From the NCBI GenBank assembly GCA_030673965.1, contig JAUTCN010000004.1, positions 62,001 to 126,000 of the forward strand: a stretch of 64,000 nt of DNA. Reading direction: 5' to 3'. The stretch is from Fusobacterium sp. JB019. Its GTDB lineage: Bacteria > Fusobacteriota > Fusobacteriia > Fusobacteriales > Fusobacteriaceae. The notes below the pieces were generated by a model. The model did no database searches and was not told the DNA's origin. It saw only the letters and a program-made list of their open reading frames with translations. Position numbers and translations under genes: made by a program. Positions 10,866 to 52,479 of the stretch are shown here, piece by piece; the first letter of the stretch is position 1, and each line of letters starts with the position of its first letter.

Positions 10866-11996
10866 TTAGAAGTTTTCTGCAAATGCTTGTAAAGAAGTTC
10901 TTGCTTGACCAAAGTCTACCATTTGTTGATCATAACCGAATTTTACATGTGGCATTTCTGCTTCATCTAAAGCTTTTCTTAATGATGGATATTCTATTTC
11001 TTCTGGATCGCAGAATTGCATCATTCCTATTATTACACCGTCAGCTCCTGCTTTTTTAGCTTGCTCTGCTATGTATAATGGTCTTGTAAATATTGTTGGG
11101 TCATATAAGATTGTATCATTATCTTGGTTTGCAAATTGCTCTGCTAATGCTCTTACTGGATCTTTTTCGTCCATTGATACATCTACTCTTATTGCTCTTG
11201 TTTCTTGAGCTACATCGTCACCAACTATTACTAATCCATATTCATCAAATAATTGTAATAATTTTGGATTATCCATTATTATTCCTGAAGTAAATACTTT
11301 TGCTCCTTTAGGTGATACTTCTTCCATTTTCTTTAATTCTTCATTTAATTCTTTTACTAATACTGTATGCTCATCTTTTAACATGAAGAACGCACTTTTT
11401 AATACAGCTGATCTTGAAACTGCTGAAATTACATCTGAATGCTTTCCTGCTAGTTCTATGAATTCTCTTCTTGCTGCTCTACTTTCATTGTATACTTTAA
11501 ATGCATTATACATTTTTTCATCTGTTATTTCTTTTCCTGCTATTTCTTCTAATTGACCTTTTATTCTATTATATTCAGTCATTGTATATTTTATTCCGTA
11601 TTCTGGTTTTCTGCTTTGTGGATGCGCTAAAAACATGAATGGTAATTGAGGTACTGCTACACGGAAATTTTGAGTAAATGGACGTAATGTATCACACATT
11701 GAACTTAAAATTACTCCTGATAATCCATCTAAAGTTCCATCTAATCCCATTTCTAATCCCATTTGTGCTATTGTACAATAGAATGATGGGAAATATTCTT
11801 TTGCTTTATTTGGTGTTCCATGTTTTCCCCATACTCCCATTGGTACCATATCTGCTGCATAAACTATTTCTTCTGGAACATAATATGGGAAACATCCTAT
11901 TACTTTTTTACCTTGCTCTGTATATTTAGCTAATTGTTTTTTTGGATTATATGCAATTTCTTTTAATTCTTTTATTAACTCTTCTACTCTAGTCAT
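10866..11996 (-). CDS. hgdB: (R)-2-hydroxyglutaryl-CoA dehydratase beta subunit
   Basis: A 376-residue protein of the 2-hydroxyacyl-CoA dehydratase D-component family. Cysteines in GCFPYYVPEEIVYAADMVP, in SSMCDTLRPFTQNF and in MQFCDPEEIEYP match those that hold the [4Fe-4S] cluster in this family. With HgdA it forms component D, which removes water from (R)-2-hydroxyglutaryl-CoA by a ketyl-radical mechanism to give glutaconyl-CoA. Its ATG overlaps the HgdA stop by one base (TAATG), so translation is coupled. It is the last gene of the nine-gene operon. Length and context favour the glutamate pathway over lactoyl-CoA or phenyllactyl-CoA dehydratases. Confidence 0.93.
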   Translation of the reverse strand: MTRVEELIKELKEIAYNPKKQLAKYTEQGKKVIGCFPYYVPEEIVYAADMVPMGVWGKHGTPNKAKEYFPSFYCTIAQMGLEMGLDGTLDGLSGVILSSMCDTLRPFTQNFRVAVPQLPFMFLAHPQSRKPEYGIKYTMTEYNRIKGQLEEIAGKEITDEKMYNAFKVYNESRAARREFIELAGKHSDVISAVSRSAVLKSAFFMLKDEHTVLVKELNEELKKMEEVSPKGAKVFTSGIIMDNPKLLQLFDEYGLVIVGDDVAQETRAIRVDVSMDEKDPVRALAEQFANQDNDTILYDPTIFTRPLYIAEQAKKAGADGVIIGMMQFCDPEEIEYPSLRKALDEAEMPHVKFGYDQQMVDFGQARTSLQAFAENF

Positions 11997-13243
11997 TACT
12001 TGTTTCCTCCCTCTTTTGCAGCTTTGTTTGCTTGCATTACTTCAAATAATCCTTCTACACGAGTATTATATTGCTCTTCTGAGAAGTTTCTTGGATCCGC
12101 TTGGTCTCCATCAAATCCTGCAACTGCTACACCTAAATCTTTACGGAATCTTCTTTCCATTTCTGGCATATAACCACTCCATGGTTTACAACTTCTGTTA
12201 TAGTGTACTAAGATACCATCAACATTGTTTTCTTTACAAATTGTTTCTCTCCACTCTACACCTTTTTCTATACAAACTGAGTTTGGAGCTTTACAATATG
12301 CTGCCATTAATTCGTCCATATTATTATATTCAAATCCAAATGCTGGAGCATAAACTACTGCTGTTGTGTTTATTCCTCTTTCTTTTAATGGCTTGAATAA
12401 TTTTCCTAATTGTGGCCAACAAGGAATTCCTTCAAACATGATTCTATGATTTTCATCATATTTCCATGTTGATTTTCCTGTTTTTACATTTTCTTCTAAT
12501 TCATCTGCTAATTGTTCAAAAGCTAATGCTGTTGCTTTTTTAGCACGAGCTGTAACTATATCTGCCATGTGATTGAATAAGTCGAATCCTGCAAATGGTG
12601 CTGGAGTATATTGTAAGTAACTACATACTTTTAACCATGCTTTTGCTGCTCTATTCGCATTAGAACAAGCTTCTTCAAATTTTTCCATATCCATTTTACG
12701 ACCAGCTATTTTTTCTAGTTGTTTGATAGCATCGTCAAATTGTCCACGGATGTAATCTATTTTATTTTGATCTGGTTCTTTTGTATTTGCATAAGGAACG
12801 TCAATCATGATTAGTGGAATATTATGCATTCTTGCTAAGTTTTCATACCATTTTGTCATACAGTTACAAATATTATTACAACATAATACAAAATCTGGTT
12901 GTGGCATTGGTTTTTCTTCTGCTTCATGTCCTGCAGCGTAAGCTAGGTTTATTCTTGCATAAGCACAGATATCATTGTCAAATCCCATAGCTTCTGCATG
13001 TTCACACATTCTTTCTCCACCATGTTTTGCTCCAATTGCTGCTGCTTGGTTTTCAGGATAAACTAAGTTTAATCCTAATGCTTCTGTTATTTCAGAAGGG
13101 AATTTAGAAGATGACCATCCTACTGGTTCTCCTCTTTTTTTAGCATCCCATGCTGCTTGATAAACTTCTCTTTCAACTACTTCTCTAAGTACATATTTTG
13201 CAGCCTTTTTTTCTTCAGCTGGTTTATTTATTGCTTCACTCAT
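11996..13243 (-). CDS. hgdA: (R)-2-hydroxyglutaryl-CoA dehydratase alpha subunit
   Basis: A 415-residue protein, the partner of HgdB in component D. Candidate cluster ligands lie in the typical segments [29 protein letters not shown] and [14 protein letters not shown], and a further Cys sits in [14 protein letters not shown]. It binds substrate and cluster together with HgdB and receives an electron from the activator HgdC. Its start overlaps the hgdC stop by 4 bases (ATGA), and its own stop overlaps hgdB. The strong bias for Gly, Ala, Glu and Lys codons relative to neighbours suggests a highly expressed enzyme, as expected for the main energy pathway. Confidence 0.93.
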
Positions 13244-14040
13244 TTTTTATTCACTCCTTCGTATTTTTTATATGCAAATAATGCTGCTCCAATTGCTCCT
13301 GCGTATTGTGTCAATGGAGATGTTTTTATTTCATGATTTAAAGCTTCTTCCATAGCTTTTACAACTCCACCATTTAACGCTACTCCACCTGTCATTACTA
13401 AATCATCTTCTATTCCGACTCTTTTAGCTAGTCCTCCAACTCTTCCTGCAACTGAACGATGAATACCCTTAATTATATCATTCTTATGAACCCCTTTTGC
13501 TAGTTGAGAAATAACTTCTGATTCTGCAAAAACAGTACAAGTTGAACTTATGCTTACATCTTCTGTAGATTGTGCTGACAATCCTTCTAGTTCACTAACT
13601 TTAACTTCTAAGATTTTTGCCATTACATCTAGAAATCTTCCTGTCCCTGCTGCACATTTGTCATTCATTACAAAATTACTTAGAACTCCATTTGGACCAA
13701 CTTTTAATACCTTAGCATCTTGACCACCAATATCTATCACTGTTCTTACGTTTGGAAATAAATAATTAGCACCTTTTGCGTGACAACTTAGTTCACTCAT
13801 TTGATGATCTGCCCATTCTAATAAAGAATTACGACCATACCCTGTTGCTAAAATAAAACTAATTTCCTCCCTAGAAAGTCCAGCTTCTTTTGTTACTTCT
13901 TCTATAACTCTTTTTGGACCACTAGTTCCTGCCCCCACATCAATAACTGCTTTACTAACGATTTCTTTCCCATCTTTTAGTATTACACTTTTTGATGCTG
14001 TAGAGCCTATATCAATTCCCATTGTATATATAGCGCTCAT
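13240..14040 (-). CDS. hgdC: 2-hydroxyglutaryl-CoA dehydratase activator (archerase)
   Basis: A 266-residue ASKHA-fold ATPase (BadF/BadG/BcrA/BcrD family). The nucleotide-binding start is [17 protein letters not shown], with the second phosphate motif [11 protein letters not shown]. The homodimer shares one [4Fe-4S] cluster held by C129 ([11 protein letters not shown]) and C168 ([11 protein letters not shown]). It uses ATP to inject a low-potential electron into HgdAB and is oxygen-sensitive. The ATG at 14040 is chosen because GGAGG lies 5 bases upstream; a longer reading frame from a TTG would run through that site. A 132-base gap with a stem-loop separates it from gcdA upstream. Confidence 0.95.
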
Positions 14041-14108
14041 TACTACCTCCAATTCAAATTTTAAACATTATTATTTTCCATAACTTTATAGTTATATAAA
14101 CTAATGTA

Positions 14109-14172: not shown

Positions 14173-15930
14173 CTATTTTTTAAAAGTTTGAAATTCACGT
14201 ATTGCTCTTGGTAATAGCATTTGATGGAATGCACATATTGATTTTGGATTTTGATAAGCTGCTTCAGCAAAAGCTTCAACATATCCACGAATAGATTTCA
14301 TATCTATAATCTCATCTATCATTCCTGCTGCTGTACAAGATTGAGGTCTTGATTCAGCTGTAAATTTCTCTATTAATTTATTCATTTTATCTATTGTAGG
14401 TTGTAAATCTTTACCTGCTTTTTTGTCTTTTCCTAATCTTCTTGAGTACATTGCAGATGCTGCAGTTTCTCCGTTCATTACATATACTTCAGATGCTGCA
14501 GTTCCTACAGTAAATACATTTGTATTATTTCCTTGAGGTCCTCCAAGAACATAGTGAGCTGCTGCAGATGCTTTTCTTATAGTTACTTCAAATTGAGGCA
14601 CTTTAGAATTTTCAATTGAATATATTAAAGATTGACCTAATCCTAATAATTCAGCTTTTTCAGCTTCATCTCCAACATCTATTCCTGTTGTATCTTGTAA
14701 CCAAACTATTGGAAGACGATCTCTACCACATAAAGTTACAAATTCATTCATTTTTACAAGTCCTTGACGGTATAATTTACCTCCAATTCCTATTGCGTTT
14801 TCTTTGTATTCAGGATATTTCATAAGTAATCCTTGAGCATTAGCAACAACCCCTACTAATAATCCGTTTACTTTAGCTATACCAGTAACAACTTCTGGTC
14901 CATATCCTTTTTTATATTCAGAAAATTCACTATTATCAAATAAACGACCGATTACTTGATAAATATCGTAAGTTTTCTTTTGATTCATAGGAACTATAGT
15001 ATATAAGTCTTCAGAATCAAATTGAGGCATTTTAGGGTCATCAACTCTAAAGAAATCTAAATTATATGCAGGTAACATTCCTAAATATTTTTTAATTCCT
15101 TCGATTACTCCTAATTCCTCTTGATATACTTCTCTCATGAATCCAGTTTCATTAAAATGAACTGAAACTGATCCTGGTGGTAATTGTTTTTTAGAATTGT
15201 TTACCATATCTGCCATTTGTTCAGCAGATTCCATGTCAACATATCCTTTTGGATTCATTCCACCTAATATTCCTGCTCCTCCAACTGCCATGTTAGCATT
15301 TCTATGAGCAATTAATACAGTAGGACTGATACTATGATATCCTCCACCTGCTGGATTTGTTCCATAGATTCCTACAATTACAGGAATTCCTAATTGTTGT
15401 AATTCAGCATTTCTAAAGAATGGAGTTCCTCCACCACGTCTATTTGGATAAACTTTATCTTGCTCATCAAACTTAACACCACTACAGTTTAAGATATAGA
15501 TTAAAGGAATATTTAATAATTTAGCAGTATCAGAACCTCTTAATAAACTTTCTGCTTGACCTTTAATCCAAGCTCCAGCAAGTTTTTTGTTGTCAGATGC
15601 AACTATTACAGCCCATCTTCCATCAACTTTTCCTAGTCCTTTTACAATTCCTACTGTTCCATGTTTATTTCCTTCTGGATTAAATAAACTATTTAATGGA
15701 CACCAAGTTCCTTTATCTACTAAAGCATTAATACGTTGTAATGCTGTCATTTGTCCTGCTTGATTTAAAGATTCAGTAGAACGTCCTGCATCTTGAGCTT
15801 CTTTTACAGCTGCAGCGATTTCTTCTTCAACTTTTTTTATAGCTTCTGTATTTTCTTGATTTGCTGCAGAAAGAGCTTTTCCTACTGTAGGCATATTTTG
15901 AAAATATCTTGGCATTGAATAATTTTTCAT
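14173..15930 (-). CDS. gcdA: Glutaconyl-CoA decarboxylase alpha (carboxyltransferase) subunit
   Basis: A 585-residue carboxyltransferase, close to the usual 587. Two crotonase-like carboxyltransferase halves are visible: the N-terminal half with GGGTPFFRNAELQQLGIPVIVGIYGTNPAGGGYHS, and the C-terminal half with WLQDTTGIDVGDEAEKAELLGLGQSLIYSI and LGGPQGNNTNVF. It transfers the carboxyl group of glutaconyl-CoA to biotin on GcdC and releases crotonyl-CoA. It faces the cytoplasm and docks on the membrane subunits. An AGGAGG site precedes the ATG. Its distance from the gcdBCD genes (about 2 kb, with gctAB between) is a local gene order, not a break: all genes run in the same direction. Confidence 0.95.
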   Translation of the reverse strand: MKNYSMPRYFQNMPTVGKALSAANQENTEAIKKVEEEIAAAVKEAQDAGRSTESLNQAGQMTALQRINALVDKGTWCPLNSLFNPEGNKHGTVGIVKGLGKVDGRWAVIVASDNKKLAGAWIKGQAESLLRGSDTAKLLNIPLIYILNCSGVKFDEQDKVYPNRRGGGTPFFRNAELQQLGIPVIVGIYGTNPAGGGYHSISPTVLIAHRNANMAVGGAGILGGMNPKGYVDMESAEQMADMVNNSKKQLPPGSVSVHFNETGFMREVYQEELGVIEGIKKYLGMLPAYNLDFFRVDDPKMPQFDSEDLYTIVPMNQKKTYDIYQVIGRLFDNSEFSEYKKGYGPEVVTGIAKVNGLLVGVVANAQGLLMKYPEYKENAIGIGGKLYRQGLVKMNEFVTLCGRDRLPIVWLQDTTGIDVGDEAEKAELLGLGQSLIYSIENSKVPQFEVTIRKASAAAHYVLGGPQGNNTNVFTVGTAASEVYVMNGETAASAMYSRRLGKDKKAGKDLQPTIDKMNKLIEKFTAESRPQSCTAAGMIDEIIDMKSIRGYVEAFAEAAYQNPKSICAFHQMLLPRAIREFQTFKK

Positions 15931-15973: not shown

Positions 15974-16774
15974 TTATTTAGATTCTACAGGTACTTTTAT
16001 GAAAGCTTGTCCTGGATCTATATCTTCTCTTATCATACGGATAACTTCTGGAGTTGGAGCTTCTAATTCAACAGCTTTTGATACATCTATATCAAATCCT
16101 GTATTTTCAATTACATCTTCTGGAGATGAAGTTGGATAGTATCCTGCTAAGTACATACGTTTAGTTTCTTCATCAAACTTAAGTATTCCTCTGTCTGTTA
16201 CTACCATTACTGGTCCTCTATTTCCAGGAAGTCCTACTTTTTCACGACCTCCAGGTCCATCCATCCATCCTGGTGATGTTATATAATCTATTTTTTTCAT
16301 AAATCTTCTTTTTTCATGTTGCATCATTATTATTGTATTTGAATAAGTTGCAATTCCATTAGCTCCACCTGAACCAGTGAATCTAGTTTTAGGATGATTA
16401 TAATCTCCTATTGAAGTAGAGTTAACATTTCCATATGGATCTATTTGAGCTCCACCTATAAAAGCTATTAACCTATCAGAATCATGTAACCATTCATTTG
16501 CTTCAAATCCTATAAATCTTACATTTGGCCATTGCACTCCACAATGTGCCATTAATCTATTGTCCCCAACACTTCTAGGTACTTCGATTGGTGCACAATC
16601 CATAAGTCCACTTTCCACTATTAAATTACATTTTGGGGCAAATACTCTTTTAGCTAAAGATGCTCCTATTAAAGGAAGTCCAGTTCCTACTATAACGATT
16701 TGTCCATCTTTTATTTGTTTACCTATTGTAACTGCTTGCATTTCTTTATTTGTATAATTAGTATAATCTGCCAT
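15974..16774 (-). CDS. gctB: Glutaconate CoA-transferase subunit B
   Basis: A 266-residue protein, the exact length of the Acidaminococcus enzyme subunit. The catalytic glutamate is E54 in LIVESGLMDCAP, which forms the enzyme-CoA thioester. The GSGGANGIATYS glycine loop and the TSPGWMDGPGGREKVGLP stretch are typical of the family. With GctA it moves CoA from acetyl-CoA to (R)-2-hydroxyglutarate (and glutaconate), activating it for dehydration. Only 3 bases separate it from the gctA stop, so the two are translated as a pair. Confidence 0.95.
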   Translation of the reverse strand: MADYTNYTNKEMQAVTIGKQIKDGQIVIVGTGLPLIGASLAKRVFAPKCNLIVESGLMDCAPIEVPRSVGDNRLMAHCGVQWPNVRFIGFEANEWLHDSDRLIAFIGGAQIDPYGNVNSTSIGDYNHPKTRFTGSGGANGIATYSNTIIMMQHEKRRFMKKIDYITSPGWMDGPGGREKVGLPGNRGPVMVVTDRGILKFDEETKRMYLAGYYPTSSPEDVIENTGFDIDVSKAVELEAPTPEVIRMIREDIDPGQAFIKVPVESK

Positions 16775-16777
16775 TTC

Positions 16778-17734
16778 CTACTTTACCCCCTTTGTAGCAT
16801 ATCCTAAACCTGGAACTATATTTAAATCTACTAAACGAGAAGCTCCTAATTTATTGATATAAGCTTCATGATTTGGTACATCATAAACCCATTCTTGAAT
16901 AAATGCATCAAAATCTTCTTGAGTTTTACTTACTTTATCATAAAGTTTTAAGAAATCATTGTCATAATCATAATATCCATAACATTGAGTTGGATGAGCT
17001 CCATATGGTAAATGAACTACTGCATCTACGCAGAAACATGGAATAGAATTTTTAGTAGGATCTTTACGAATTTCTTCGTTACTTACTAACTCTTCACAAG
17101 TTACTATACAACGTTTTGCTGCTATTGCGATATCTACATCATGGAATTCGTCACCTAAAATAGAACAAGTTCCATCTGGAGATGCTTTTTGTACATGGAT
17201 TAAAGCTAAATCTATTTCAGGTACTGGAACAGCTACCACTTTTTCTCCTGGGTTGAATGGATTTTCAACATATACAAATTTATCATCTGGTATTTTTGGT
17301 ATAGTTTTTCTTATTTCTTTTGAAATTCCCCATTTATTTACTAAATCAGTTCCCATCATTAAACGAACTGGTAAATAAGGTAATCCTAATGAAGCTGCAT
17401 GTAACATTAACATAATAACATCTTGAGAATAATCTTCCATATGAAGTTTCCCTGCTTCAAACCATTTTCTGAAACGTCTAGAAACATTTGTTACTCCTGA
17501 ATTTGCTGTATAACAGTTAATGTATGCTTTAACACGGTCACACCCTATAAGCATGTCCCAATCTCCACCTGCAGGTCCACCTTCTCCTACAAAATCTTTA
17601 AATCCTTGTCTTAAAATTTCATAAACTAATGAATATGGTTTTCTGTTTGTAGTGAAACCACCAATTACTATGTGATCTTCATTTTTGACATATTTTGCTA
17701 CTGCTTCTTTTAAAGTTAACACTTTATTTTCCAC
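16778..17734 (-). CDS. gctA: Glutaconate CoA-transferase subunit A
   Basis: A 318-residue protein (family about 320). The N-terminal VIGGFTTNRKPYSLVYEILRQG and the glycine-rich VGEGGPAGGDWDMLIGCDRVKAY match the alpha subunit of glutaconate CoA-transferase. Together with GctB it makes 2-hydroxyglutaryl-CoA in the cytoplasm. The start codon is GTG: GGAGG lies 8 bases upstream and no ATG fits the N terminus. A 120-base gap with an inverted repeat separates it from gcdB, and this gap may hold an extra control point. Confidence 0.95.
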   Translation of the reverse strand: MENKVLTLKEAVAKYVKNEDHIVIGGFTTNRKPYSLVYEILRQGFKDFVGEGGPAGGDWDMLIGCDRVKAYINCYTANSGVTNVSRRFRKWFEAGKLHMEDYSQDVIMLMLHAASLGLPYLPVRLMMGTDLVNKWGISKEIRKTIPKIPDDKFVYVENPFNPGEKVVAVPVPEIDLALIHVQKASPDGTCSILGDEFHDVDIAIAAKRCIVTCEELVSNEEIRKDPTKNSIPCFCVDAVVHLPYGAHPTQCYGYYDYDNDFLKLYDKVSKTQEDFDAFIQEWVYDVPNHEAYINKLGASRLVDLNIVPGLGYATKGVK

Positions 17735-17854: not shown

Positions 17855-18994
17855 TTATCCAAAAATCATCATAAAGAATCCTGCTGCAACAGCTGATCCT
17901 ATAACCCCTGCAACATTTGGTCCCATTGCATGCATTAATAAGAAGTTAGTTGGATTAGCTTTAGCTCCTTCAACTTGTGCAACTCTTGCTGCCATTGGTA
18001 CTGCCGAAACTCCAGCTGCTCCAATTAATGGATTTATTTTTCCTTTTGTTAGAAAACATAATAATTTCCCTAACAATAAACCACCCATAGTAGAGAAACA
18101 GAAAGCTAAAAGTCCCATCCCTATGATTGCTAATGTTTGAGTTCTTAAGAATATTGCTCCGTCTGATGTTGCCCCAACTGCTAACCCTAACATAATAGTT
18201 ACTATATTACATAGCGCATTTTGACAAGTATCTGATAAACGTCCTACTACTCCAGACTCTCTCATTAAATTTCCATACATTAACATACCAATTAATGGAG
18301 CTACTGAAGGAAGTAATAAAGAACAGAATAATGTTACGAATACTGGGAAAACAACTTTTTCAGTTTTAGAAACTTTTCTTAATTGTCCCATTTTAATTTT
18401 TCTTTCTTCTTCTGTAGTTAAAGCTCTCATAATAGGAGGTTGAATCATTGGAATCAACGCCATATATGAATACGCTGCAACGGCTATTGGTGCAACTAAT
18501 TGAGGTGCCAGATTATTTGCAATATAAATTGCTGTAGGTCCATCTGCTCCACCTATAATCCCTATAGCTGCTGCTTCTCCAACTGAAAATAATCCAGTTG
18601 CATTTGCTAACATAAATGCTACATATATACCAAATTGTGCTGCTGCTCCTAATACCAAACTTATTGGGTTTGCAATTAACGGACCAAAATCAGTCATTGC
18701 TCCAACACACATGAATATTAAACATGGGAATAAACTACTTTTTACCCCATTATATATAATTCTTAAAATTCCTGATGAATACCAAGGATCTGCATGTTTC
18801 ATTAAATCTGCTAATGGTAAATTCGCTAAAAACATTCCGAAAGCTATCGGTAAAAGTAATAACGGCTCAAACTTTTTAACAATAGCTAGATATAATAGTA
18901 CAAAAGCTACTAACATCATAACAGCTTGTTGCCAACTTATTGCTAAAAATCCTGATTGCATCAGTAATTCTTTTAATACTGTAAAAAAGTTCAT
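17855..18994 (-). CDS. gcdB: Na+-translocating glutaconyl-CoA decarboxylase beta subunit
   Basis: A 379-residue polytopic membrane protein of the OadB/MmdB/GcdB family. Recognisable motifs are the first-half [26 protein letters not shown] and the C-terminal [16 protein letters not shown]. It accepts the carboxyl group from biotin on GcdC, releases CO2 and uses the energy to move Na+ across the inner membrane. About ten hydrophobic segments are visible. Family members cannot be told apart by sequence alone; the glutaconyl-CoA assignment rests on neighbours gcdA, gctAB and hgdABC. An AAGGAGG site precedes the ATG, and gcdC lies 13 bases upstream. Confidence 0.95.
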
Positions 18995-19007: not shown

Positions 19008-19424
19008 TTATTTAAGAACAACTAAAGTTGCGTCTGTATCTACTGCATCCCCAGCTTTAACAAGAACAGAATCAACTGTTCCATCAGCTGAAGCAACTAC
19101 TTCAGTTTCCATCTTCATAGCTTCTAAAACTACTACTACTTGTCCAAATTTAACTGCATCTCCTGCTTTAACTTTAACATCTAAAACTGTTCCTGGTAAA
19201 GGACTTACTACTGATGATTCTCCTGCTGCTGGAGTTGCTGCTGGTGCAGGTGCTGCTGGTGCCGCTTGAACTGGTGCTGCTGGTGCAGGTGCTGCTTGAA
19301 CTGGTGCAGGTGCAATAACTGCATTTGGATTAGCTATTTCTTCACGTGTTAATGCTCTATAATCCTCAACTCTTTCTAATTCTACCTCATATTTTTTCCC
19401 ATTTAATGTAGCTATGTATTTCAT
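19008..19424 (-). CDS. gcdC: Biotin carrier subunit of glutaconyl-CoA decarboxylase
   Basis: A 138-residue biotin carrier. A short N-terminal domain (residues 1-30) is followed by an Ala/Pro hinge at ~37-67 (repeats of AP and VQAAP) and a biotinyl domain from ~70 to the end. Biotin is expected on K104 in EAMKMET. The flexible hinge lets biotin swing between GcdA and GcdB. The hinge is one of the few G/C-rich stretches in the window and is repetitive, so its length may vary between strains. It is the second gene of the operon, between gcdD and gcdB. Confidence 0.95.
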   Translation of the reverse strand: MKYIATLNGKKYEVELERVEDYRALTREEIANPNAVIAPAPVQAAPAPAAPVQAAPAAPAPAATPAAGESSVVSPLPGTVLDVKVKAGDAVKFGQVVVVLEAMKMETEVVASADGTVDSVLVKAGDAVDTDATLVVLK

Positions 19425-19479: not shown

Positions 19480-19761
19480 CTATTTTACTTCTTTGATTTC
19501 TTTAATTTTATATTCCCCTTTTAAAGAACGAACTTCTTCAGATACAGCAGCCATAATAACTGCATATACATCATCGTTGTTCTCTTTTTTAGGTTGAACT
19601 ACTGGCTTTTTGCTTTCTTCTTGTCCTGAAAATTTTCCAAAAATTTTAGAAAATACTACTATTGACAAGGCTAATGTTACCAAAGCTGAAAACACTATTG
19701 AAACACCCAAACCTGATATGACTAGTGATTCCATAAAAGTCATTACATTACCTTCGAACAT
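19480..19761 (-). CDS. gcdD: Small membrane subunit of glutaconyl-CoA decarboxylase (OadG-like)
   Basis: A 93-residue protein with one membrane helix (residues ~11-36, SLVISGLGVSIVFSALVTLAL) and a charged cytoplasmic tail ending in a V/E/K-rich helix (VYAVIMAAVSEEVRSLKGEYKI). It matches the OadG/gamma-delta subunit that anchors the soluble carboxyltransferase to the Na+ pump. It is the first gene of the operon. The ATG follows an AGGAGG; a strong promoter and a palindromic operator lie upstream. Confidence 0.85.
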   Translation of the reverse strand: MFEGNVMTFMESLVISGLGVSIVFSALVTLALSIVVFSKIFGKFSGQEESKKPVVQPKKENNDDVYAVIMAAVSEEVRSLKGEYKIKEIKEVK

Positions 19762-19802
19762 TTAATAATACACCTCCTTGTGTTATTATTTTATTTCTTT
19801 TA

Positions 19803-19827
19803 TTCCATATTGTGGAACGCATTCCAC
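19803..19827. promoter_or_regulatory. Composite palindromic operator upstream of gcdD (IclR-type candidate)
   Basis: Two overlapping dyads share a TGGAA element: TTCCA-tattg-TGGAA (19803-19817) and GTGGAA-cgca-TTCCAC (19812-19827). The TGGAA/TTCCA half-sites resemble operators of the IclR family. It lies about 10-30 bases downstream of the predicted transcription start, where a bound repressor would block elongation. Confidence 0.7.
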
Positions 19828-19842
19828 TAATTTTATAAAAAG

Positions 19843-19871
19843 ATTATAATACAACACTTCTTAGAAGTCAA
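19843..19871 (-). promoter_or_regulatory. Promoter of the gcd-gct-hgd operon
   Basis: On the minus strand TTGACT (19866-19871), a 17-base spacer and TATAAT (19843-19848) are almost perfect consensus. A second exact dyad, ACTTCT-t-AGAAGT (19856-19868), overlaps the -35 box and spacer. This is one of the strongest-looking promoters in the window. Confidence 0.8.
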
Positions 19872-21141: not shown

Positions 21142-22341
21142 ATGACGTTTAATTTTAACATGTATGAAACTCTTGCTATTGCAATTGTTATACTTCTAGT
21201 TGGAGATTTCTTGAAAAAAAGAATTTCTGTACTTGAAAGATTTTTTATTCCTGAACCAGTTATTGGTGGGGTACTATTTTCTATAATTTTACTTATAGGA
21301 CATAACACTAATATGTTCAATTTCACTTTTGATGGAACTTTAAAGACTTTCTTAATGGTTGCTTTCTACGCAACAGTAGGATTCCTTGCAAGTTTCGAAC
21401 TTCTAAAAAAAGGTGGAGTTGGAGTTGCTTTGTTCCTAGTATGTGCTATTATACTAGTTACTCTTCAAGATATAGTTGGTGTTTCTTTAGCTAAAATGTT
21501 TGGATTACATCCATACATTGGTCTTGCAGCCGGATCTGTTCCTTTAACAGGTGGACACGGAACTTCTGGAGCATTCGGTCCTATCATGGAACAAGCTGGA
21601 GCTACTGGAGCAATGTCTGTTGCTATGGCTTCTGCTACTTTTGGACTTGTTGCTGGTTGTTTAATCGGTGGACCTATCGCTAAGAAATTAATTGAAAAAT
21701 TCAAACTTCAAGGACCTAAAGAAGAAACTGTACTTAATGAAGATGGTACTGATTCTGAAACTGCTGTTGTTGAACATAGAATGACTGAACAATCTATAAC
21801 TCATGCAATTGTTGCTATTGGTTTAGCAGTTGGTTGTGGTGTTTGGATTCCAGCTTTTTCTAAAGCTCACGGTTTAGCTTTACCTATTTACTTAGGACCA
21901 ATGATCATTGCAGCTCTTATCAGAAATATCATGGATGCTTCTAAAAAGAAACTTCCTTTAAAAGAAATTTCTGTTATTGGAAATATCGCACTTGCTTTAT
22001 TCCTTGCTATGGCATTAATGTCTATGAAATTATGGCAGCTTGCTGACCTAGCTTTACCATTAATTGTTATCTTATTGGTTCAAACTTTTATGATGGGTGT
22101 ATTCGCTTACTTCATTACATTTAATGTAATGGGAAGAGACTATGACGCAGCTACTATAGCATGTGGACATTGTGGATTTGGAATGGGAGCTACTCCTAAT
22201 GCAATGGCTAACATGGAAGCTTTCACTAAAGCAAACGGACCATCTATCAAGGCATTCTTTGTTATACCTTTAGTTGGATCTCTATTCATAGATTTCTTTA
22301 ACGCTTTCGTTATAACTACTTTTATGAATATTTTCAAATAA
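21142..22341 (+). CDS. gltS: Sodium/glutamate symporter
   Basis: A 399-residue polytopic membrane protein of the ESS/GltS family. The duplicated re-entrant-loop motifs are visible: GSVPLTGGHGTSGAFG in the first half and CGHCGFGMGATPNAMANM in the second. GltS imports glutamate with Na+. Codon use is richer in C-ending codons than neighbours, suggesting high expression. The neighbouring nine-gene operon degrades glutamate and exports Na+, so this is very likely the supply step of that pathway. It has its own promoter and a strong terminator. Confidence 0.95.
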   Translation: MTFNFNMYETLAIAIVILLVGDFLKKRISVLERFFIPEPVIGGVLFSIILLIGHNTNMFNFTFDGTLKTFLMVAFYATVGFLASFELLKKGGVGVALFLVCAIILVTLQDIVGVSLAKMFGLHPYIGLAAGSVPLTGGHGTSGAFGPIMEQAGATGAMSVAMASATFGLVAGCLIGGPIAKKLIEKFKLQGPKEETVLNEDGTDSETAVVEHRMTEQSITHAIVAIGLAVGCGVWIPAFSKAHGLALPIYLGPMIIAALIRNIMDASKKKLPLKEISVIGNIALALFLAMALMSMKLWQLADLALPLIVILLVQTFMMGVFAYFITFNVMGRDYDAATIACGHCGFGMGATPNAMANMEAFTKANGPSIKAFFVIPLVGSLFIDFFNAFVITTFMNIFK

Positions 22342-52264: not shown

Positions 52265-52296
52265 CACAATGTAAAAAACAACTAAATATAAAAATA

Positions 52297-52388
52297 ACTT
52301 ACTAGGGGAGCCTTAACCGGCTGAGAGGAGATTCGGTCTCGACTCTTATTACTTGAACCAGATAATGCTGGCGAAGGGAAGTAAATGA
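52297..52388 (+). promoter_or_regulatory. TPP riboswitch (THI box)
   Basis: Conserved elements are in order: AGGGGAGCC, GGCTGAGAGGA, TTGAACCAGATAATGCTGG and CGAAGGGAAGT. The closing helix pairs TTACT (52299-52303) with AGTAA (52380-52384). Such elements bind thiamine diphosphate and switch off thiamine biosynthesis genes. Confidence 0.97.
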
Positions 52389-52479
52389 ATTAGCCCTCCT
52401 ATTTAGGAGCATATTTAAATTTTAAATATGACTATTAAGTTATACATATGGTTAATTTTTTACGAGAAATAAGAAGCTA

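Follow-up and report, generated by a model that had tools for sequence, protein, structure and literature searches.

Organization of the gcd-gct-hgd operon

The window analysed here, a 64,000-nt stretch of the Fusobacterium sp. JB019 genome (GCA_030673965.1, contig JAUTCN010000004.1, positions 62,001–126,000), carries on its minus strand the nine-gene operon described in the first-pass annotation, running from 19761 to 10866. The genes are, in order, gcdD (19480–19761; OAD_gamma), gcdC for a biotin carrier (19008–19424), gcdB for a sodium-ion-translocating decarboxylase subunit beta (17855–18994), gctA (16778–17734) and gctB (15974–16774) for two CoA-transferase subunits, gcdA for a carboxyltransferase subunit (14173–15930), hgdC for an acyl-CoA dehydratase activase (13240–14052; TIGR00241 above cut-off), and hgdA (11996–13243) and hgdB (10866–11996) for the alpha and beta subunits of a 2-hydroxyacyl-CoA dehydratase. 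Both CoA-transferase subunits have weak family matches, and gctA is assigned to glutaconate CoA-transferase by operon context. Operon context also underlies part of the gct, gcd and hgd naming in general: several of the curated models that were matched describe relatives, and the matches to them fell short of their cut-offs. The 2-hydroxyglutarate route, which supplies butyrate formation, is a main pathway of glutamate fermentation in fusobacteria as well as in many Clostridia of the gut.

The next gene upstream, in tandem on the same strand (20724–19969), is the iclR gene that had been noted there, encoding a predicted regulator with HTH_IclR and IclR_C domains. Its product belongs to the IclR family (PF09339, 42.1 bits against a cut-off of 22; PF01614, 90.7 bits against 24), and its best solved relative is the IclR transcriptional regulator 1mkm (E-value = 1.6e-39). 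Divergent from iclR lies gltS (21142–22341, plus strand). Elsewhere in the window, a TPP riboswitch was recognized at 52294–52396 (plus strand) with 65.9 bits, above the Rfam gathering score.

The near-consensus promoter claimed for the operon was also found: TTGACT (19866–19871) and TATAAT (19843–19848) are separated by 17 bases on the minus strand (19871 to 19843) and agree with the consensus at 11 of 12 bases. Among the congeners the -35 hexamer has an identity of 0.91, and the -10 hexamer is identical in all six. The promoter spacer contains another dyad, ACTTCTTAGAAGT (19856–19868), which was rejected: it is no longer intact even in the closest relative (L002), and it is missing elsewhere.

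A three-box site downstream of the promoter

Directly after this promoter the plus strand reads ATTCCATATTGTGGAACGCATTCCAC (19802–19827), in which TTCCA-tattg-TGGAA (19803–19817) shares bases with GTGGAA-cgca-TTCCAC (19812–19827); the composite palindrome pointed out earlier is thus real, and both dyads can be read directly from the sequence. On the operon strand the putative operator, GTGGAATGCGTTCCACAATATGGAAT (19802–19827, minus), has the architecture TGGAA-4-TTCCA-5-TGGAA, that is, three half-sites of alternating direction: box 1, TGGAA (19822–19826; TGAAA in most relatives), box 2, TTCCA (19813–19817), and box 3, TGGAA (19803–19807). Taking the predicted transcription start as 7 bases past the -10 hexamer, the site spans about +10 to +35.

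The pattern TTCCAN5TGGAAN4TTCCA with up to two mismatches is expected by chance 0.16 times per window, and its sole exact match is the gcdD site. In pattern scans of the whole 2.27-Mb genome, TGGAAYRYRTTCCA occurred exactly once, and the full composite had two good matches, one before gcdD and the other before the hadh operon described below. The half TTCCAN5TGGAA, with 10 sites in the genome against three for a reversed control, is unremarkable when taken alone and was rejected as a regulon marker. Sites with three mismatches were not commoner in this genome than in the reversed control, so further targets cannot be claimed; here the regulon appears to be a narrow one.

Conservation in Fusobacteriaceae

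The site is kept in all six genomes of the genus that have iclR beside gcdD. Across these six congeners no other 25-base window between iclR and gcdD is as well conserved: mean pairwise identity is 0.87 in the site, against 0.49 ahead of the -35 hexamer, 0.63 from the -10 hexamer to the site, and 0.39 from the site to the ATG. The sole congener without a gcd-type IclR (G034) lacks gcdA as well. In the family, all eight assessable genomes with a gcd-type IclR have the site before gcdD, so that its absence beside the same IclR, which the first-pass annotation had named as evidence against an operator, was never encountered. None of the seven genomes without that IclR has it (G015, G016, G017, G026, G027, G036 and G037); G050, whose contig begins within the operon, was left out of the count. 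The association gives a Fisher p of 1.6e-4 when shared ancestry is ignored; as presence and absence follow genus lines, the counts overstate the number of independent events.

In genus g12, iclR lies on the far side of hgdB, some 11 kb away from gcdD, and the gcdD promoter nevertheless keeps the site (TGAAATGCGTTCCACATTATGGAAT in G049; TGAAATACGTTCCACAATATGGAAT in G051 and L106), which indicates that more than a shared neighbourhood links regulator and site. In g12 the iclR promoters themselves carry CATGGAATCTGTTCCAT, CGGAATCGATTCCG and TGGAATATATTCCA immediately past the -10 hexamer. The variant CGGAAT..ATTCCG is altered in both arms, as expected for a site that is read as a dyad. In the window's genus, no copy above 9 bits was found in the iclR–gltS intergenic region of the loci scanned, and none was found before gltS in the window.

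A 14.9-bit match in G036 (L076:14094) was not accepted as a site; it is promoter-like and precedes another regulator gene. In that genome a 666-residue BglG/PRD-type-like regulator (L076:12047–14047) precedes gcdD, and a similar C-terminal coding sequence stands before gcdD in G026, G027 and G037. The presence of such a protein where both IclR and the site are missing (genera g5 and g6) suggests a swap of regulators.

Occurrence in Bacillota

When one genome was scanned for each species, the same IclR clade was recognized in many Clostridia at 42–54% identity, including Clostridium symbiosum, C. aminophilum, Caproicibacter and Anaerotruncus, in many cases beside gcd-gct-hgd clusters. Where the start of the operon is visible, the site is present in Caproicibacter, two Anaerotruncus, UBA5408, Clostridium vitabionis and Copromonas. 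A weight matrix was run over 952 kb of loci, some of them from metagenome bins. The matches above 22 bits all lay before gcdD or iclR, and on reversed sequence, as a control, a single match exceeded 13 bits. As gcdD sites had served to train the matrix, independent matches are confined to those at iclR, at hadh, in G051 and in Copromonas. In the iclR promoters of Anaerotruncus, Caproicibacter and Pygmaiobacter (Oscillospiraceae are among the carriers), the site overlaps the -35 hexamer of TTGCA[TC]-17-TAT[AG]CT, as read by eye.

In the phylogenetic tree, rooted at its midpoint only, the gcd-type IclR proteins form a single clade (100/98) in which those of fusobacteria branch within those of Bacillota. 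This nesting suggests transfer between the phyla, and the regulator, perhaps with the whole cassette, may have moved from one to the other.

Two further arrangements were observed. UBA5408 (Ruminococcaceae, L137:5960–6024) has two tandem operator copies before gcdD, 40 bases or about four helical turns apart, a spacing that suggests cooperative binding. In Desulfovirgula a deeper IclR relative (36% identity) directly precedes gctA-gctB-like genes (L151:10833–12574), and a site-like sequence (L151:9969–9993) lies 32 bases ahead of the start of that relative.

A probable second target and diverged paralogues

The only other good match in the JB019 genome, GAACGCGTTCTACAATGTAGAA at C8:2223, precedes a D-2-hydroxyacid dehydrogenase gene (hadh), which is followed by a GltS-family transporter gene; two IclR paralogues flank this operon. 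In G050 the same dehydrogenase gene stands directly after hgdB (C96:5248), which ties hadh, whose substrate we presume, to the pathway. In the tree the paralogues group as a clade of their own (100/100), which sits inside the gcd-type proteins. Their operator keeps the three-box layout, with TTCT/AGAA replacing TTCC/GGAA (G000, G031 and G017), and G037 has only a degenerate form of it. The recognition helix is PK[ST]TA[HY]G in the paralogues and PPST[VI]HR in nearly all gcd-type proteins read, with PRSTVHR in L144 as an exception. By alignment to 1mkm, residues 34 and 39 are positions 28 and 33 in Table 5 of PMC8222616, both correlated with operator bases there.

Judged by proximity, the paralogues probably pair with the TTCT operator, and a duplicated, diverged regulator pair probably serves the separate 2-hydroxyacid dehydrogenase operon through a diverged operator. 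They represent a natural case of a duplicated regulator in which the DNA-reading helix and the operator changed together. It is conceivable, at somewhat less than even chances, that the whole IclR clade is a dedicated sensor of a 2-hydroxyglutarate-pathway intermediate in Fusobacteriota and Bacillota, and that some fusobacterial copies were re-specified, helix and half-site together, turning one regulon into two parallel switches, one for gcd and the other for the 2-hydroxyacid dehydrogenase and transporter.

The 5' leader of hadh contains a block of about 85 bases that is nearly identical across three genera (L047:2410–2505, in the JB019 genome on contig C8; L048:7281–7375; L051:7280–7380; L052:7637–7735), and among 98 genomes of the phylum it was found before hadh only. 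Relative to shuffled sequences its folding has z = -4.2 to -4.9 in three of the four sequences and -2.4 in the fourth, and a hairpin ATCCCA/TGGGAT competes with GGGATAAG/CTTATCC. The block has no Rfam match, and the four sequences show no two-sided covariation; we regard it as a candidate structured leader RNA. Two matches to its pattern on viral contigs were dismissed as chance, the rest of the element being missing.

Proposed regulation of the operon

Conservation, the matched presence and absence of site and IclR, the site in the iclR promoters of other genera and a published family motif together strongly support the site as the operator of the neighbouring IclR. Very probably, then, the composite palindrome is an operator whose boxes would be bound past the transcription start, with the gcd-gct-hgd promoter blocked until a small molecule binds. 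IclR dimers or a tetramer would occupy the three alternating half-sites, and the bound protein would block the promoter; the block would be lifted when a small molecule, probably one of the pathway's acids, occupies the C-terminal domain. We infer that IclR contacts the site itself, that it represses and does not activate, and that the inducer is of this kind.

The position of the site, past the predicted start at gcdD and past the -10 or over the -35 hexamer in the iclR promoters of other genera, is suited to blocking transcription and fits repression together with autorepression. IclR most likely acts as a repressor of the gcd operon, and position likewise supports autoregulation of iclR in the related genera. 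Of the earlier claim that the site is a repressor's operator, the operator part is borne out by conservation and co-occurrence with IclR, and for the repression part it is position that speaks. The IclR_C domain makes a small-molecule effector likely, and relief of repression by a pathway metabolite is plausible.

PcaU and PobR are activators or dual regulators in other bacteria, and activators occur among the IclR-family proteins that use three-box sites. It is accordingly worth considering that the same IclR binds the site as an activator or dual regulator, all the more as a promoter is not evident at the operon site of Bacillota such as C. vitabionis and Caproicibacter. However, a site downstream of the start, as in the fusobacteria, or over the -35 hexamer, as in several iclR promoters, is ill-suited to activation, and we consider this unlikely. 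Less probable still is that the dyad serves another regulator, perhaps a global one, and that the adjacent IclR is coincidental: the abundance of the isolated TTCCAN5TGGAA half, about ten per genome, is compatible with it and nothing speaks for it directly, whereas the composite has just two good matches in the genome and tracks the gcd-type IclR, even into that protein's own promoters in other genera. That the palindrome acts as a hairpin in the mRNA 5' leader (for stability, attenuation or as an RNase site) is the least credible reading, and was rejected as the pairing is neither conserved nor compensated. The leader of JB019 itself folds somewhat better than shuffled sequences (z = -2.2), and there is a scored terminator-like pattern, although it lies on the plus strand and the operon on the minus strand. 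Against this, four of six congener leaders fold no better than chance; GTGGAA/TTCCAC is intact in only two of 13 species, with no case of compensation in both arms; the second hairpin is mismatched in five of 13; loop and stem are equally conserved; and where the site lies over a -35 hexamer it is untranscribed.

With repression by the adjacent IclR as the preferred reading, the site, the regulator and the broad set of orthologues provide a directly testable regulon and possibly a new metabolite-responsive regulator. Because regulator and site are kept together in two phyla, control of this energy pathway is directly testable. In the open-access literature searched, we found no description of a transcriptional regulator for the 2-hydroxyglutarate pathway.

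Comparison with known regulators

The NCBIfam models BhcR, KdgR, AllR and IclR share their domain layout with the window regulator. BhcR is the best match, with 111.8 bits against a cut-off of 350, and the scores are also well under the KdgR, AllR and IclR cut-offs; the regulator is therefore none of these, and no ligand can be transferred from them. DhdR belongs to the GntR family and has a role in D-2-hydroxyglutarate catabolism. This protein, from Achromobacter denitrificans, is a bacterial transcription factor linked to D-2-hydroxyglutarate (PMC8651671).

According to PMC8222616 (Suvorova and Gelfand), IclR-family motifs are of two types, and 32 orthologous groups have three-box sites joining both. 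The suggestion that TGGAA/TTCCA half-sites mark an IclR-type operator agrees with this three-box motif. Boxes 2 and 3 of the window site correspond to the group 1 motif ATTCC-N7-GGAAT and are an exact fit to WTTYCRYW3RYGRAAW; for the group 1 pair GKTYCRYW3-4RYGRAMC the fit is to the WTT-11-AAW subgroup, which ATTCCACAATATGGAAT matches on the 25-mer of most relatives, the base preceding TTCC being G in the window and A in most relatives. The box 1–2 pair, TGGAATGCGTTCCA, has the arms of group 2 (TGRAACAN1-2TGTTYCA), but 4 bases separate TGRAA from TTYCA where the consensus has 5 or 6, so that its spacer is at least one base shorter.

The GenR site of Corynebacterium glutamicum, also of the IclR family, is tabulated in PMC8222616 as ATTCC-N7(5)-GGAAT, like the ATTCC-N7-GGAAT of most relatives of the window site; however, GenR regulates gentisate and 3-hydroxybenzoate genes, and its tabulated site is without a third box. 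The gcd-type IclR group may already be among the regulogs in the supplement of that paper. The three-box operators of PcaU, PobR and HmgR have alternating boxes as in the window site. The known targets of such operators belong to aromatic or sugar-acid catabolism, whereas the target here is a glutamate-fermentation pathway. In short, the site represents a known type of operator with an unusually clean cross-phylum footprint.
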